Of a DNA stretch of 64,000 bases, positions 54,548 to 61,507 are shown piece after piece. The notes under the pieces were generated by a model. The model ran no database searches, had not been told where the DNA came from, and worked only from the letters and a program-made list of their open reading frames with translations. Each line of letters opens with the position of its first letter. Position 1 is the first letter of the stretch. The stretch comes from Nitrospira sp. CG24B (GTDB lineage Bacteria; Nitrospirota; Nitrospiria; Nitrospirales; Nitrospiraceae): NCBI GenBank assembly GCA_002869845.2, contig NEWS02000003.1, positions 75,607 to 139,606 on the forward strand, read 5' to 3'. The position numbers and the translations under genes were made by a program.

Positions 54548-54937
54548 ATGACGAAGGGAAAAGCCGCAGTGTTGCTGATCGTCGAGGATGACCGTGAAAT
54601 GCGCAGTCTGCTATGCGATGAATTTTGCGGAACAGGATATCAGTTGCGTGAAGCAAGGGATGGGGACGAAGCCTTTCTGGCGGTCCTACAGTCCGTGCCT
54701 GATCTGATTTTGACGGATCTACGGATGCCGGCAGGAGGAGATGATTACATCAGCCGGTTGAGGACCGTGGCACCCAGGTGTCCCATCGTTGTCATCACGG
54801 GATTCGGCGATGCGGTATTGAAAGCTCAGGTATTGAAAGCAGGAGCGAACGCGTACTTTGACAAGCCCGTCCGTGTTGCCGAGCTGAAGGCTTGTGTGCA
54901 ACAATTGCTCGACCATAGACCCGGAGCTGAGAGCTGA
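54548..54937 (+). CDS. Single-domain response regulator
   Basis: The start at ATG 54548, behind GGAGAGG, gives 129 residues: one receiver domain with EDDREM, phospho-acceptor Asp57 ([12 protein letters not shown]) and [10 protein letters not shown]. There is no output domain. The ORF-track extension to 54473 would translate the sigma-54 promoter. It is followed after 13 bases by a sigma-54 activator without its own receiver, so the pair may act as a split NtrC-type regulator. The [20 protein letters not shown] helix matches receivers of this class. Confidence 0.9.
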
Positions 54938-54950
54938 CGGCATAGGCCGT

Positions 54951-56360
54951 ATGCTCTTCATCTCGAGAAATGAGCCCGCTTTGTGTGACTCAGAACGCCT
55001 TGACGGACCACGACAGACGGATCCCATCGTTGCCGCTCGAATCGAAGCGATCAAGCAGTTAGCAGAGGGACTCTCGGACCGCGTGGCGGTGATGGACTCC
55101 TCATTCAACGTCGTCTACGCGAACGAGGCAGCCTGGGCTGTCGACCAGACTCACACACCTCGCCGACTTCACGCCAAATGCTATGAAGCGTTTGCGCATC
55201 GGACCGACCCTTGCGGGACCTGTCCGGCCATAAGGGTATTTGAGGCCCCCGAGGTCCAGTGCGTATCTTGTTCCAGCGGAGGAGATGGCACGGCCTGCGG
55301 GATGCAACAAGCCTTTCCCTTAGCGGATGGGCAGGGAACGGTGGCCTCCATGCTGGTGCTCTTTCATCCCACACTGAAGTCTCATAGTCGAGCAACGCCA
55401 GAGGATTCCACCGGTCAGGCGGGAAGCGACGGGCTAGGGGATTTGATCGGTCGAAGTTCCGCCATGCGGCAGCTGTTCGACATGACTCGTCTTGTGGCGG
55501 ACAGTTCGGCGACCGTCCTCATACAAGGGGAGAGCGGAACGGGTAAAGAAATCCTGGCGAGAACGATTCATGTGCTCAGCAGCCGGAAAGATCAGCCGTT
55601 CGTCGTCGTCGATTGCGGATCCCTGCCAGAGACACTACTCGAAAGTGAACTGTTCGGGCATGTGAAGGGCGCCTTCACCGGGGCGGTCGCCAATAAGCGT
55701 GGGCTCTTCGAAGAGGCAGACGGCGGGACCATCTTTCTCGATGAGATCGCCGATACCACGCCGACCTTTCAAGCGAAGCTGCTTCGAGTCCTGCAAGAGG
55801 GCGAGATCAAGCCCGTGGGTGGAACCAGGTCGCTGAAGATCCATGCGCGGGTCCTCTCTGCCTCGAACAAAGATCTGGCCGAACTGGTGAAGGCCAAAAC
55901 GTTTCGGCAGGATCTGTACTATCGACTCGCCGTGTTGCCTCTCTATTTGCCGGCTCTCCGGGAACGGCGAGACGACATCCCGCTGTTAGTCCGGCACTTC
56001 GTTGCTGCTTCGTGCGCTCGACATCATCAACCGGTTCGGCAGGTCGCCGAGCGAACGATGAGGACGTTGCGCGACGCTCCGTGGCCCGGCAATGTCCGAC
56101 AATTGCAGCATTACGTCGAACGGGCCGTGGTGACGACCGCCGGGCCGTGGCTCGTGTGTGATGATCTCCTCGATGTTGGCACCGCTGACGAGCACGAGAG
56201 CTTACGGTCAACGTCGCGGGGGGTGGTTGCCCAGGCTGAGCGCACGCGAATCGTTGACGCGCTAGAAAAGACTGCCGGAAACCGATTGAAAGCCGCCAAG
56301 TTGCTCAAGATCAGCCGAGCGAGTCTCTATAACAAACTTCGTGCCTATAGCATCGAATAG
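54951..56360 (+). CDS. PAS-containing sigma-54-dependent transcriptional activator
   Basis: The ATG at 54951 lies after the upstream stop and gives 469 residues; the track start overlaps the receiver gene. The N-terminal PAS-type domain (about 40-150) has a cysteine cluster ([18 protein letters not shown], then [14 protein letters not shown]) that could hold Fe-S or heme, or sense redox. The AAA+ domain has [15 protein letters not shown], an intact GAFTGA loop and [12 protein letters not shown]. The Fis-like HTH is [20 protein letters not shown]. It is likely co-transcribed with the receiver from the sigma-54 promoter, giving autoregulation. Confidence 0.93.
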
Positions 56361-57064
56361 CTTGTTGGTTGTCCTCGTCCAGCTCTTTCTTCAGGTCATA
56401 GCTCTCCACGTATCTCAATAGTCTACTCCATTGAAACTCTGGATAACGGTCCGGATGCCTGCCGGAGTTGTGTAGAACCTGCGTTTCAGCTCCTGGTATT
56501 TGGCCGGACAGAGCTGAATATGAAGATTGTCCCGCGTGTGTTCCTTTTCGCCTTTCTTTCGCGGACGGACGTCTATGGCCGTGGACAGTATAAGTGGATG
56601 ATATCTAAACGATCGAGCGAGATCTCCCTTGCGATTGTCCAAACTGATGGATTGCGTTGGGCACTCCAAAAAGACGCTGATACTCGATATGAACCTCCCA
56701 TCGTCGCTCTTCACACGCGAATAATTCGTTGGAGAGACCGCGAACAAGCATGGCACGAACGTTGCGGTTGTCAGAAGCATAGACAGAGGTCTGGCTCTGT
56801 CTGAGTTAGCTAGTGATTCGCCCTGTCAGTAGTTAGCTCCATTCGCTCGGGAGCGAGCGGTTGTCCTGACCGCTACGTGCCAGCGATGAGGGGGTCACAG
56901 GTGAGAGTGGCCCCCCCGTTTTCTATACGGTCTGGGCCAGCGCATGGCACACATGGATTGGGTGCGAAGCAACATGCAAGGCGATAGGAAACTATCTCTT
57001 GTACATGACTGCCGGTGGGTGTCGGACACGCCGTGAAAGCCGTCCGTTGGGAAAGAAGAGACGC
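56361..57064. other. Non-coding stretch before the 2OG oxygenase
   Basis: About 700 bases. The two overlapping ORFs here (56415..56780 minus, 56520..56804 plus) show no family pattern and no ribosome-binding site. Only the hairpin at 56890 can be supported. Confidence 0.5.
56890..56924 (+). terminator. Hairpin with T-tract, possible terminator
   Basis: GGGGGTCAC pairs with GTGGCCCCC (one G-T pair) around a short loop and is followed by CCGTTTTCT. It would stop rightward transcription from the sigma-54 regulator operon. Confidence 0.5.
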
Positions 57065-57922
57065 ATGCCGAGGGTCAGCCCTGTGGCCGACATGGAAAGC
57101 AATCTTGTAGAAGCTGTCGAGGGGGTGGATCGCTTTCTCCTTCATCAAGCCTATTGGGATCAGAACGAGTTTCTGTTGTTGGAACAGTTTATCCCGCCGT
57201 CGGTCGTCAAGCCCTGCCTATGCGAGATCGAACAGCTCAGTAGTGAAGTTCATCGGAATTATGTGCCGGGCCATAAGCAGGGAGGCAGCGTCAGCTCCTA
57301 CGTCATTCGTGAAAAAGCGCCGGCGATTGTGGCGTTGTATCGGTCGCCTGCACTCCGGACGTTCCTCAGCCGGCTGGTCGACGCTCCCCTCATGCTCTGC
57401 CCCGAAGACGATCCGCATGCCTGCGCGTTGTATTACTACACAAAACCCGGCGACCACATCGGCTTTCACTATGACACGTCCTACTACAAAGGCGCTCGCT
57501 ATACGGTTCTCATCGGCCTAGTCGAGCAATCCGAGCATTGCCGGTTGGTGGCACGGGTGCATAAGGGTAAGGCTCCCACCGAGATCAGTGAAACCCGCAT
57601 CCCAATGGAGCCGGGAACGATGGTGGTCTTCAACGGCGACAAACTCTGGCATGCCGTCACACCGCTTGGTGCTCACGAACGGCGGGTGATCTTGACGCTG
57701 CAATACGTGACGGATCAGCGGATGGGGCCGCTCAAGAAACTGTTTTCCAACATGAAGGATGCGTTTGCCTACTTCGGGCCGGCCGCGCTGATGCACCGGC
57801 CCAAGGCGAAGCAGGCCTCGATCAACGATCGCGTGATGATCCGAGCCGACATGATGACCGATCATCCGACGCTGCAATTTCTCGCGGGAGTATGGAGTGC
57901 ATCTCTCAATCGCGATTCCTGA
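57065..57922 (+). CDS. 2-oxoglutarate/Fe(II)-dependent oxygenase-like protein
   Basis: The ATG at 57065 gives 285 residues. The iron-binding facial triad is visible as HIGFHYDTSYY (HxD) and LWHAVTPLG (distal His), with the 2OG-binding Arg in HERRVILTLQYV. This is the double-stranded beta-helix pattern of the 2OG-Fe(II) oxygenase superfamily. The N-terminal 100 residues (FLLLEQFIPPSVVKPCLCEIEQL) resemble phytanoyl-CoA- or prolyl-hydroxylase-like starts. The C-terminal 60 residues are basic. Substrate unknown. It has no operon partner. The track start at 56999 lacks a ribosome-binding site. Confidence 0.82.
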   Translation: MPRVSPVADMESNLVEAVEGVDRFLLHQAYWDQNEFLLLEQFIPPSVVKPCLCEIEQLSSEVHRNYVPGHKQGGSVSSYVIREKAPAIVALYRSPALRTFLSRLVDAPLMLCPEDDPHACALYYYTKPGDHIGFHYDTSYYKGARYTVLIGLVEQSEHCRLVARVHKGKAPTEISETRIPMEPGTMVVFNGDKLWHAVTPLGAHERRVILTLQYVTDQRMGPLKKLFSNMKDAFAYFGPAALMHRPKAKQASINDRVMIRADMMTDHPTLQFLAGVWSASLNRDS

Positions 57923-58161
57923 GGCGCAGGTGGTTGAAGCCCGGACTTTGCTACGCATAGTCCGGATGGCGCCGGCCTGCGATGTAGAGGCCGATGAATA
58001 GGGGGCGGCGTACGTCCATGGCTCTTGTGCTCAGGAGTCGATTGGGTAGGCGCGGAATCGATTATTCACCAAGCTGACGCCTCGGGCCGGAGGGTGTCCG
58101 TCAGCTGAGCGCTCGAAGGAGGGCCGTGCTTCTCGATGCATAACCAGGGAGGGGGAGTATC

Positions 58162-58848
58162 ATGCAGGTTCAGAAGAGCAGGAGAAATATCGGATCGTGG
58201 TCTGTTGCAGTGTCACTCGCCGCAGCGTTCGCCCTGAGTAGTGTGGGAACGGCCTTGGCTGAAGATACGACCACAACAGGAAACCGCGTATTCTTTCGTG
58301 GAGGCTATGGACAGATGCTGAGTGATCGGGCTGGTGAGTTTATCACCGACGTCCATGGAGCCGGCGGTAAGAATGATGGAACCGGGGGCTATTACATCGG
58401 CGGTGGCGCGGAGCTCATGGTCACCAAGGATCTGTGGGGTATGCTGCCAGGTGTCGCGCTTGTGGGCGAGATCGGATTGGAATTCAAGCGATGGAGTTCC
58501 AGCAGTGTCGTGAGCGGAGAAGCCCTGACGCCTGTCAGCAATTTTACTCCGGCCAAGGTGCAGATGACCATGTTGACGGCAAGCGTCGCGCCGAAAGTGA
58601 AGTTCCGGCAGGGGACCGATTTCCAACCTTGGATCATTCCGGCCGGGTTGGATTTCCACGTCATCAGCCCAACGTCGAGTCAGATCAATTACTTGGACAT
58701 CGGGGTTCAGTTTGGTGGGGGTGCTGAGTTTCGCCTGTGGAAGGAGCTGTGGCTGGGTCTCGACAGCCGATTCCATCTGGCCTCCAATCAAACCAACACG
58801 GTGAATAATTTCTGGACTGCCGGCATCTATGGGGCAATCGGCTTCTAA
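58162..58848 (+). CDS. Outer-membrane beta-barrel-like protein
   Basis: A 228-residue protein with a signal peptide (SVAVSLAAAFALSSVGTALA, cleaved before EDTTT). The mature part has alternating amphipathic strands (RVFFRGGYGQML, GGYYIGGGAELMV, VALVGEIGLEFKRW, DIGVQFGGGAEFRLW) ending in an aromatic terminal IYGAIGF, typical of BamA-recognised barrels. GGGAGGGGGAG precedes the ATG. An intrinsic terminator follows, so it is probably monocistronic. No specific porin or enzyme family is recognised. Confidence 0.8.
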   Translation: MQVQKSRRNIGSWSVAVSLAAAFALSSVGTALAEDTTTTGNRVFFRGGYGQMLSDRAGEFITDVHGAGGKNDGTGGYYIGGGAELMVTKDLWGMLPGVALVGEIGLEFKRWSSSSVVSGEALTPVSNFTPAKVQMTMLTASVAPKVKFRQGTDFQPWIIPAGLDFHVISPTSSQINYLDIGVQFGGGAEFRLWKELWLGLDSRFHLASNQTNTVNNFWTAGIYGAIGF

Positions 58849-58900
58849 AGAGCGTGATGGCGACTACCTGACATTTATCGTCTCCATTGGTTCCTACTTC

Positions 58901-58934
58901 GCAGGGAGCCGCGAAACGGCTCCCTGCTCTTACC
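58901..58934 (+). terminator. Intrinsic terminator after the beta-barrel gene
   Basis: GCAGGGAGCCG (58901-58911) and CGGCTCCCTGC (58917-58927) pair perfectly over 11 bp with loop CGAAA, followed by TCTTACC. The T-tract is short. Confidence 0.75.
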
Positions 58935-58980
58935 CCCGCCCTACCAGGCGGGAACCTCTCGCGTATGTAAAGGAGTTTCA

Positions 58981-59703
58981 ATGTCCATCCCTGAACAAGC
59001 CCCAGCGCCCCAGGCACCCACACGCCAATATGTGAACTTCGTCTTTTATAAAGTCGACCCAGCCTGGCGGCGTTTGCCGGAGGATATGCGCACCCAGGGT
59101 AAACAGGAGTTCCTCCGGGCCGTGGAAGACTACAACGGCAAAGTCCTGGTGGTACCCTATTCCACCATCGGTATCCGGGGAGATTGCGACTTTATGCTCT
59201 GGCGCATCAGCTATGACCTGGACCTCTTCCAAGACATGAGCGCCAAGATCCTCGCCTCCGGCCTCGGACAGTATCTCTCCACCCCCTATTCTTATCTCGC
59301 GATCACGAAGCGCTCGGTCTACGTGGACCATCACACCCACGCGGGACAGGAAGGGAAACGGCTGACGGTGGTGCCAGGGAAGAGCAAATATAACTTCGTG
59401 TATCCATTTCTAAAGACGCGCGAGTGGTTCCTGCTCACGAAGGCGGCGCGACAGGGCATGATGGATGAGCATATCGAAGTGGGCCATCGGTTTCCGTCCG
59501 TGAAGCTGAATACGGCCTATTCGTTTGGGTTGGATGATCAGGAATGGGTGGTGGCGTTTGAAAGCGATAAGCCGGAAGACTTTCTGGAACTCGTGATGGC
59601 GCTACGCGAAACGGAGGGCTCACGCTACACGCTGCGTGACACGCCGATTTTCACCTGCGTTCGCAAGAGTCTCAAAGAAACGCTCGACACGCTCGGCGGC
59701 TGA
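58981..59703 (+). CDS. Chlorite dismutase/HemQ-family heme protein
   Basis: A 240-residue cytoplasmic protein of the Cld/HemQ/Dyp-related fold. It has KSKYNFVYPFLKTREWFLL, close to the YPxxK element of HemQ with its catalytic tyrosine, and MMDEHIEVGHRFPSVKLN with the proximal heme His. SFGLDDQEWVVAFESDKPEDFLELV follows. There is no signal peptide, unlike the periplasmic Nitrospira chlorite dismutase. The Arg or Gln expected at the distal site is not evident (LNTAYSFG). Coproheme decarboxylation is the likeliest family role, but a variant activity is possible. It is followed by a Rieske oxygenase after 14 bases. Confidence 0.85.
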   Translation: MSIPEQAPAPQAPTRQYVNFVFYKVDPAWRRLPEDMRTQGKQEFLRAVEDYNGKVLVVPYSTIGIRGDCDFMLWRISYDLDLFQDMSAKILASGLGQYLSTPYSYLAITKRSVYVDHHTHAGQEGKRLTVVPGKSKYNFVYPFLKTREWFLLTKAARQGMMDEHIEVGHRFPSVKLNTAYSFGLDDQEWVVAFESDKPEDFLELVMALRETEGSRYTLRDTPIFTCVRKSLKETLDTLGG

Positions 59704-59717
59704 CGCCACAGAACTGC

Positions 59718-60758
59718 ATGCTCGAAGGCTTCTGGTACATTGCCGGGGAAAGTGCTGCGGTCAGGGACGGGCGGCCGTTGGCGTCGGTGCTCTGCAATCA
59801 ACCATTAGTGCTGTTTCGGGATGGCCAGGGTCGTGCCCATGCGTTAGAAAATCGCTGTCCCCACAAAGGCGTGCCGCTCTCGTCGGCCCGGCAGGAAGGG
59901 GATTCCTTGCGTTGCCCTTTTCACGGGTGGCGCTTTATCTCTTCCGGTGAGTGTGTAGAAGTACCGGCCATAGGCAACGTGGCGCATCCATCACTGGCCT
60001 CGGCCTGCGTGAGGACTTTTCCAGCGGAGGAACAGGACGGGTGGGTGTGGGTCTATATCGGGAACGACCAATGCCCAAAGCCTTCGACTCCACCACCGTC
60101 GTTGCCGGTGCCCGCTGATGGGAGTCCAATGGTCTCCGTGCGCGAGTCCGCCGAGGCCAACGTCCGGTGGGATTTCGCCGTGGATAGTCTCATGGATCCC
60201 GCCCATGTCCCCTTCGTGCACAACAATTATTTCCGGCGGCGCGAGGCGGCCAAGAGAAAGGAAAAAGTGTTCACGCGACTGCCACTGGGGTTTCGCACCA
60301 TCTCGCAGAACGTCCTGCTGCCGGACACGTTTATCTTTCGCGCCTTGTCTCCGAGGCTGGGCTCGGCCACGACCACGGTCGATTTCGTCCTGCCCGGCAT
60401 CCATCTGGAACGATGGGAGATCGGCACACGGTTCGCGTCCGTCATGTTGGTGGCCACACCGCTTACGAATGAACGAAGTCGGTTCGACATTTGCGTCGGG
60501 TGGAACTTCTTGCGCGGGCTTCCTGTTGGATGGCAGGTCCGCCGGACCTTGAGGACTATCCTGAGCCAGGACCGGGAAGTGCTGGAATTGCAGGAACAAG
60601 GGTTCGGCCAGAAGGGAAGTATGCTCTTGAACTTAGAATCGGACACATTGGCCGTGTGGTACCGGCGGCTGAAGAGATATCGTTTGGATCAATTGGCCGG
60701 TGTGCCGGATCCACAACATCCGGTTCCTGAGAAGACCACGCTCAGCTGGACCACCTGA
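59718..60758 (+). CDS. Rieske non-heme iron oxygenase
   Basis: A 346-residue protein with a Rieske [2Fe-2S] domain: CPHKG (Cys47, His49) and CPFHGW (Cys66, His69). The catalytic domain has the mononuclear-iron pattern DSLMDPAHVPFVH with Asp and two His. This is the layout of ring-hydroxylating and of PaO/CAO-type oxygenases (LLDPAHVPFVH is typical of the latter). It directly follows the HemQ-like gene, so a tetrapyrrole or heme-like substrate is a reasonable inference. An electron donor is not encoded nearby. Confidence 0.88.
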   Translation: MLEGFWYIAGESAAVRDGRPLASVLCNQPLVLFRDGQGRAHALENRCPHKGVPLSSARQEGDSLRCPFHGWRFISSGECVEVPAIGNVAHPSLASACVRTFPAEEQDGWVWVYIGNDQCPKPSTPPPSLPVPADGSPMVSVRESAEANVRWDFAVDSLMDPAHVPFVHNNYFRRREAAKRKEKVFTRLPLGFRTISQNVLLPDTFIFRALSPRLGSATTTVDFVLPGIHLERWEIGTRFASVMLVATPLTNERSRFDICVGWNFLRGLPVGWQVRRTLRTILSQDREVLELQEQGFGQKGSMLLNLESDTLAVWYRRLKRYRLDQLAGVPDPQHPVPEKTTLSWTT

Positions 60759-61030: not shown

Positions 61031-61507
61031 ATGTATTCCACGCTGATTGTCCTGCATATCCTTGCCGCCATGAGCTGGGTTGGAGGGATGATTTTTCTTT
61101 CTCTGGTTTTGGCTCCCTTGGTCAGAGGGCGGAAAGCCGCGCCGGAATTCATGGCGATGTTTCGATCTGCCGCGCTACGGTTTCGCCCCATCGTCTGGAT
61201 CGCGATGGCGATCCTCTTGATCACTGGGCCGATGTTACTCTCACACCGTGGCCTCAGTGTCATGGCACCGGCTTCATGGCCGGGAATCGTGACCATGAAA
61301 CTGACGTTGGTCGCCCTGTTGTTGTTCCTGACCCTACTCCATGATCTTGTCTTCGGCCCTCAGGTCAGTCGGGTCAGCGCTATCGCAGAATCTCAGCGGA
61401 CGACCGGAGAGCGGGTCATCTTCAAATCTGCTCGCTGGTTGCCACGTCTTTCATTGCTCATCGCACTGGCCGTAGTCGTTGCGGCGGCGCTGCTGGCACG
61501 GTCATAA
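61031..61507 (+). CDS. CopD-like four-helix membrane protein
   Basis: A 158-residue protein with four transmembrane helices: STLIVLHILAAMSWVGGMIF, PIVWIAMAILLITGPMLL, KLTLVALLLFLTLLHDLVFG and LSLLIALAVVVAAALLA. The His in LHILAAMSWVGG and in LLHDLVFGP fits the CopD/heme-binding small membrane family. The function of stand-alone members is not settled (copper handling or electron transfer). No copC or copper pump is nearby. Start at ATG 61031 without a strong ribosome-binding site. Confidence 0.7.
   Translation: MYSTLIVLHILAAMSWVGGMIFLSLVLAPLVRGRKAAPEFMAMFRSAALRFRPIVWIAMAILLITGPMLLSHRGLSVMAPASWPGIVTMKLTLVALLLFLTLLHDLVFGPQVSRVSAIAESQRTTGERVIFKSARWLPRLSLLIALAVVVAAALLARS

Follow-up and report, generated by a model that had tools for sequence, protein, structure and literature searches.

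Coproheme decarboxylases (ChdC, or HemQ) and chlorite dismutases (Clds) belong to one protein family and are told apart at the catalytic position, where tyrosine marks the former and isoleucine the latter; in actinobacterial ChdC enzymes the distal base is a histidine on the linker loop (PMC7611857). Cld-like enzymes in comammox have been interpreted as possibly detoxifying (PMC7078480). Non-operonal amoC genes are present in all comammox and are stress-linked in other ammonia oxidisers (PMC6311188). The comammox literature that we searched on ChdC, Rieske proteins and haem synthesis holds nothing on the cluster described here, nor did we find amoC tied to a chdC copy, a Rieske gene, a leader RNA and sigma-54 control; both the accessory cluster and its link with genes of ammonia oxidation seem not to have been described before.

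The window (the whole 64-kb stretch of DNA that was analysed) comes from a 3.1-Mb genome that also carries AmoC. Named close relatives of its Rieske locus include Nitrospira sp. RSF1, RSF5 and RSF12 and a 'Rifle cladeA' genome; these and AmoC together identify the host as a comammox Nitrospira, probably of clade A. We infer that the second amoC-bearing genus of the family, g17, is clade B.

Two forward-strand genes form the centre of this study. One encodes a second ChdC copy, ChdC2 (58981–59703, 240 aa), and the other a Rieske oxygenase of the short monooxygenase type (59718–60758, 346 aa), with 14 bases from the stop of the first to the start of the second. Both reading frames and their spacing agree with an earlier note on this DNA, which had proposed that the pair carries out an unusual tetrapyrrole-modifying step and not chlorite detoxification.

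ChdC2 has the residues of a coproheme decarboxylase

ChdC2 matches the Chlor_dismutase model (PF06778) with 190.6 bits over 188 of 189 positions, as expected of the dimeric α+β barrel of the Cld family, and a strong ribosome-binding site (AAAGGAG) lies directly upstream of its gene. The active-site set comprises the catalytic Tyr141 (within YPFLK), the proximal His164 (within DEHIE), His118 of the putative linker loop and Leu176. These residues and His120 are invariant in 83/83 sequences (64 core ChdC and 19 accessory copies), whereas the genome's own Cld (L003) has isoleucine at the tyrosine position. Leu176 aligns with the catalytic arginine of Nitrospira defluvii Cld, a position that holds alanine in actinobacterial ChdC and arginine in L003; the distal arginine of a chlorite dismutase is thus replaced by leucine in every sequence of the set. 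The earlier note had correctly recognized the proximal histidine, the YPFLK element and the lack of a distal Arg or Gln. Its view of that lack as unusual does not stand: all 64 core ChdC sequences checked share it, so that a 'missing' distal residue is normal for Nitrospiraceae.

His118 aligns with the distal-base histidine of the actinobacterial enzymes, although our ChdC2 model (six-row alignment, pLDDT 58) is too poor to place the loop. No NCBIfam HemQ equivalog cut-off is reached; the best match, NF042928 (125.3 bits against a cut-off of 235), models the actinobacterial subfamily, so that its failure limits only the subfamily naming of ChdC2. The N termini of ChdC2 (MSIPEQAPAPQ...) and of the Rieske protein (MLEGFWYIA...) have no obvious signal peptide as judged by eye, in line with the earlier note. 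By class, the sequence places ChdC2 among coproheme decarboxylases, and the enzyme itself looks ordinary; it would convert coproheme to haem b. Chlorite detoxification by ChdC2 was rejected, as the earlier note had anticipated: the residues are wrong, within the Cld family the protein sides with the coproheme decarboxylases, and a separate true Cld lies elsewhere in the genome. The residue pattern guards against a likely misannotation, since these intracellular proteins look like coproheme decarboxylases and not chlorite dismutases.

Duplication of ChdC and the haem pathway

Three Cld-family genes were found in the genome, where other family members were sought by searches and in selected stretches: ChdC2 in the window, a core copy at C19 that is 92% identical to it with the same active-site residues, and L003, a periplasmic-looking Cld with the distal arginine of a true chlorite dismutase. 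The second HemQ and the hemG/hemY gene that the earlier note had proposed to look for thus both came to light, the latter as CgoX/HemY in sister genomes, where it adjoins hemE-hemH in the order hemE-hemH-cgoX. The ordinary coproporphyrin pathway formed by these genes therefore accounts for the core ChdC. The present genome has hemE-hemH followed by an assembly gap that cuts hemH (100 N at L106:7958-8057, G000 C15); no cgoX scores over the cut-off in this assembly, and a search for HemF found none.

A ChdC-family match, close or distant, is present in 173/175 genomes of the family, and the core gene occupies a single conserved locus (with cinA-like, ligT-like, c4 and c5 genes) in 25 loci. The accessory-cluster copy was counted in 23 of the 175. 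AmoC is carried by 21 of these 23 genomes against 55/152 of the others (Fisher p 4e-7, ignoring relatedness). Two genomes (G060 and G153) have the accessory-cluster copy as the sole ChdC found; a second copy in G092, near-identical to its core copy and without cluster neighbours, was left out of the counts.

In a DNA tree, all 14 ChdC2 rows of the window's genus (14/14) fall in a single clade (SH-aLRT 86) next to the core copies of that genus. The pattern in g17 is different: the ChdC2 genes of G133, G139 and G148 each group with the core gene of the same genome (SH-aLRT 96–97) and that of G150 falls separately, which calls for either repeated duplications or gene conversion. The similarity of the g17 copies to their own core genes could reflect conversion instead of repeated duplication. 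Selection maintains ChdC2, as its dN/dS of 0.056 argues (0.027 for core ChdC); the gene is nonetheless dispensable, since many comammox genomes are without it. Truncated chdC2 copies occur in G142 and G151. In G069 the gene is split between L065:7823-7900 and L128:6313-6972, through either rearrangement or assembly error: one contig carries codons 1–221, and another the final 26 codons, next to the Rieske gene.

The Rieske oxygenase and its pairing with ChdC2

The Rieske protein combines a Rieske domain (PF00355, 79 bits) with a VanA_C domain (PF19112, 49.3 bits). All ligands expected of a Rieske α-subunit (C47, H49, C66, H69, D160, H163, H168 and D285) are invariant in 14 sequences, and the DPAHVPFVH motif that the earlier note had singled out is present and nearly invariant over ten orthologues. 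The gene evolves with a dN/dS of 0.11. A structural model (pLDDT 85) matches small Rieske monooxygenases in fold, and the nearest PDB folds are small-molecule monooxygenases. An assignment to the PaO/chlorophyll type was rejected: the pheophorbide a oxygenase model (PaO, PF08417) scores 13.6 bits, below its cut-off of 27, and no such protein was found in this genome. The earlier note's proposal was to fall if the protein grouped with aromatic-degradation enzymes; no clear clustering of that kind is seen, the protein forming a clade of its own in a tree with only two partial aromatic references, both on long branches. Another Rieske oxygenase, with about 34% identity and the motif DPAHGPFVH, is near-universal in Nitrospiraceae (L097, L100, L101 and most genomes).

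We found close Rieske orthologues (about 83% identity or more) in 27 genomes, 24 of them with AmoC, and remoter ones (53–71%) in seven genomes, all without AmoC. ChdC2 adjoins the Rieske gene in 12/23 close loci and in a locus at a contig edge (L148), and the identical 14-base gap is found in 13 loci. The steadiest near neighbour of the Rieske gene is an outer-membrane protein gene (19/23 loci). Within the comammox genomes of the genus, 14 have both genes, 1 has ChdC2 only, 10 have the Rieske gene only and 32 have neither. The pairing seen by the earlier note is thus a recurrent one that co-occurs in comammox, but each gene is also found alone: about 10 comammox genomes and 7 more distant ones of Nitrospiraceae have the Rieske gene but no ChdC2, and 8 genomes have ChdC2 but no Rieske gene.

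An accessory cluster linked to amoC

The pair lies in a larger forward-strand cluster. Upstream is a sigma-54 activator (54894–56360) with an AAA+ interaction domain (PF00158, 227 bits), a Fis-type helix-turn-helix (HTH_8, 43.8 bits) and a Cys-rich N-terminal region; its gene keeps the same position in related clusters, and it is the likely regulator of the operon, judged from its domains and placement. A HalD-like 2-oxoglutarate/Fe(II) oxygenase (2OG; 56999–57922; PF23169, 49 bits) is also kept in the cluster. It is followed by a remnant (57897–58016) of c6, a conserved, Cys-rich protein of ~168 aa, recognized by tblastn over residues 3–42 (77.5% identity, E 1e-16). c6 is intact in most relatives and broken in the window; it has no Pfam match, and accessory clusters of both comammox genera often include it (L080:6498-7010 and 23 other loci). 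Next comes an outer-membrane β-barrel-like protein (OMP; 58162–58848; PF13505, 24.8 bits, below the cut-off of 28.7) whose N terminus resembles a signal peptide by eye.

Downstream of the pair, a CopD-like membrane protein is encoded at 61031–61507 on the same strand (PF05425, 30 bits, just below the cut-off of 32.1). In 17/23 close loci no more than 4.5 kb separates it from the Rieske gene; a 272-bp gap precedes the CopD-like gene, and its membership of the operon is uncertain. HemJ was considered for this gene and rejected (21.2 bits against 34.2).

In the window's genus the order runs sigma-54 activator, sometimes amoC, 2OG oxygenase, c6, OMP, sometimes c27, ChdC2 and Rieske, and then a HEAT protein, a CopD-like protein or a giant multicopper protein. 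The g17 cluster contains 2OG, c6, a CRP-type regulator, amoC, OMP, ChdC2, a desaturase, a cyclopropane synthase and CopD-like. The giant protein (about 1580 aa, multicopper-oxidase-like) lies downstream in many clusters (L123:8018-12772; also L072, L081, L263 and L268). In 8 loci AmoC is encoded no more than 6 kb from ChdC2, against 0/26 for core ChdC copies. The window's own cluster has no amoC, and a search of the interval from the activator to the 2OG gene for a remnant of it found none.

Promoter and leader RNA

Upstream of the first operon gene is a predicted −24/−12 sigma-54 promoter, TGGCACGAACGTTGC (56751–56765, forward strand), the single exact match in 64 kb (0.03 expected) and conserved at this position in most clusters of the genus. 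A putative upstream activator site, the dyad TGTCCA-N5-ATGGA (56636–56651, forward strand; one match in 64 kb, 0.04 expected), is conserved in the aligned upstream regions of relatives, and a second, weaker dyad (TCGC/GCGA) lies at 56703–56720. The −24/−12 element, activator gene and upstream site together make up a sigma-54 operon at the level of sequence, in which the activator would bind the dyad at 56636–56651. No sigma-54 site was found in the g17 clusters.

The promoter is followed by a structured leader RNA of five helices (56775–56933, forward strand). In an alignment of 17 sequences with 40 pairs, 97.2% of cells are paired, against 40–52% when the alignment is slid; 12 pairs have changed on both sides, and the single-strand fold z-score is −4.67. 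The last helix is a 14-bp hairpin (loop AGGUGAGA) with a T-run behind it, akin to an attenuator or terminator. Beyond its training clusters, a covariance model recovers the RNA in G115 and G085, where it lies between amoC and 2OG, and in G129, where amoC is just upstream. No Rfam family matches at its gathering score; the sole loose match, on the opposite strand, is to a microRNA family and scores far under the cut-off. Covariation is strong, and the element may represent an attenuator or riboswitch-like RNA that has not been described. A separate inverted repeat, GGGAGCCG-CGAAA-CGGCTCCC, lies between the OMP and ChdC2 genes (58895–58935), has no T-run and is possibly a processing or attenuation site.

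Discussion

We favour, with moderate confidence, a reading in which ChdC2 is a conditionally expressed extra haem-synthesis enzyme within a sigma-54-controlled accessory operon of comammox Nitrospira, and the Rieske protein has a substrate of its own. Enzyme class, duplication, cluster, the conservation of promoter and RNA, and the link to amoC are its footing, all at the level of genome comparison. A core gene would have been duplicated into the accessory operon; the neighbouring activator probably controls this operon, and the leader RNA may attenuate its transcription. Like the core copy, ChdC2 would use peroxide to turn coproheme into haem b, and switching on the operon would add capacity at the last step of the coproporphyrin-dependent pathway. 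Comammox bacteria bear a heavy haem load. The higher demand would plausibly come from the haem-rich ammonia-oxidation apparatus (hydroxylamine oxidoreductase and cytochromes) or its repair, a haem-dosage role that we infer because the metabolism of the organism is cytochrome-rich. The Rieske protein would act beside it as an O2-dependent monooxygenase. Its substrate is unlikely to be a tetrapyrrole; in a few relatives, the presence of desaturase, cyclopropane-synthase and outer-membrane genes in the cluster hints weakly at an envelope lipid.

The step that the earlier note had suggested, in which the product of ChdC2 (haem b or a partly decarboxylated intermediate) is oxygenated by the Rieske protein to give an unusual haem for an ammonia-oxidation enzyme, now seems unlikely. 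The tight 14-base spacing in 13 loci, the co-occurrence of the two genes within comammox and the DPAHVPFVH motif, which we take to resemble that of PaO-type enzymes, speak for it, and the tree does not reject a grouping of the Rieske protein with PaO (p 0.18). The active site of ChdC2 is however identical to that of the core enzyme, the PaO score is about half its cut-off, the nearest folds act on small molecules, and the genes are separable, with Rieske orthologues in genomes that have neither ChdC2 nor comammox genes. A joint tetrapyrrole product is possible, with adjacency as its one positive argument. Still less probable is that the Cld-family protein scavenges peroxide or oxychlorine species, as a chlorite dismutase or peroxidase shielding an oxygenase-rich operon. 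Its family membership, the frequency of true Clds in Nitrospira and the detoxifying reading of comammox Cld-like enzymes (PMC7078480) are consistent with such a role; leucine for the distal arginine and tyrosine for isoleucine in every sequence, the separate periplasmic-looking Cld with its arginine and the lack of an obvious signal peptide on ChdC2 argue against it.

The two genes may instead be mere neighbours in an often-reshuffled island, each selected alone, the duplication having no special link to ammonia oxidation. We find this doubtful, if a better prospect than a modified tetrapyrrole: the variable composition of the cluster, the broken c6 and absent amoC of the window, and the split or truncated chdC2 genes of G069, G142 and G151 fit it, but two genera have much of the gene set in common, promoter and leader RNA are conserved within the genus, and the eight ChdC2 copies beside amoC have no counterpart among the 26 core copies. 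Conditional haem supply from a sigma-54-controlled operon remains the reading we prefer. Its bolder extension, which we hold only tentatively, is that the sigma-54 operon, its undescribed RNA and a ChdC2 repeatedly recruited beside a lone amoC would form a stress module for haem supply and oxygenation; in the boldest form, ChdC2 and the Rieske protein would make a modified haem. A condition-specific extra copy of the last haem enzyme would offer a handle on haem tuning and on the role of singleton amoC in comammox, and the trigger can be tested in enrichments by way of the leader RNA and the sigma-54 promoter.

ChdC2 resembles actinobacterial-type ChdC/HemQ (for example, Corynebacterium diphtheriae ChdC) in fold family, catalytic tyrosine, proximal histidine and, by alignment, the linker-loop histidine (PMC7611857), but has leucine where those have alanine and exists here as one of two copies, in an accessory operon. 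The N. defluvii chlorite dismutase, NdCld, shares its Pfam family with ChdC2 (phmmer, about 78 bits); ChdC2 differs in lacking the distal arginine, in having tyrosine for isoleucine and in the want of an evident signal peptide, and an NdCld-like gene (L003) is present separately in the genome. The Rieske protein shares its Rieske and VanA-type catalytic domains, similar length and fold (E about 1e-22) with the small Rieske monooxygenases (dicamba O-demethylase DdmC, guaiacol O-demethylase and the SxtT/GxtA type), yet is only about 22% identical to them, forms a Nitrospiraceae-specific clade and has no adjoining reductase gene. A similar DPAHVPF-like motif surrounds the iron ligands in the PaO/Tic55/chlorophyllide a oxygenase group (PF08417), from which the protein is set apart by falling short of the PaO domain; cyanobacterial PF08417 proteins are about 465 aa long, with long branches in between. 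The closest parallel for the cluster as a whole is the non-operonal (singleton) amoC locus of nitrifiers: amoC lies within the same cluster in several relatives of the window, and the cluster here adds a chdC copy, a Rieske gene, a leader RNA and sigma-54 control.
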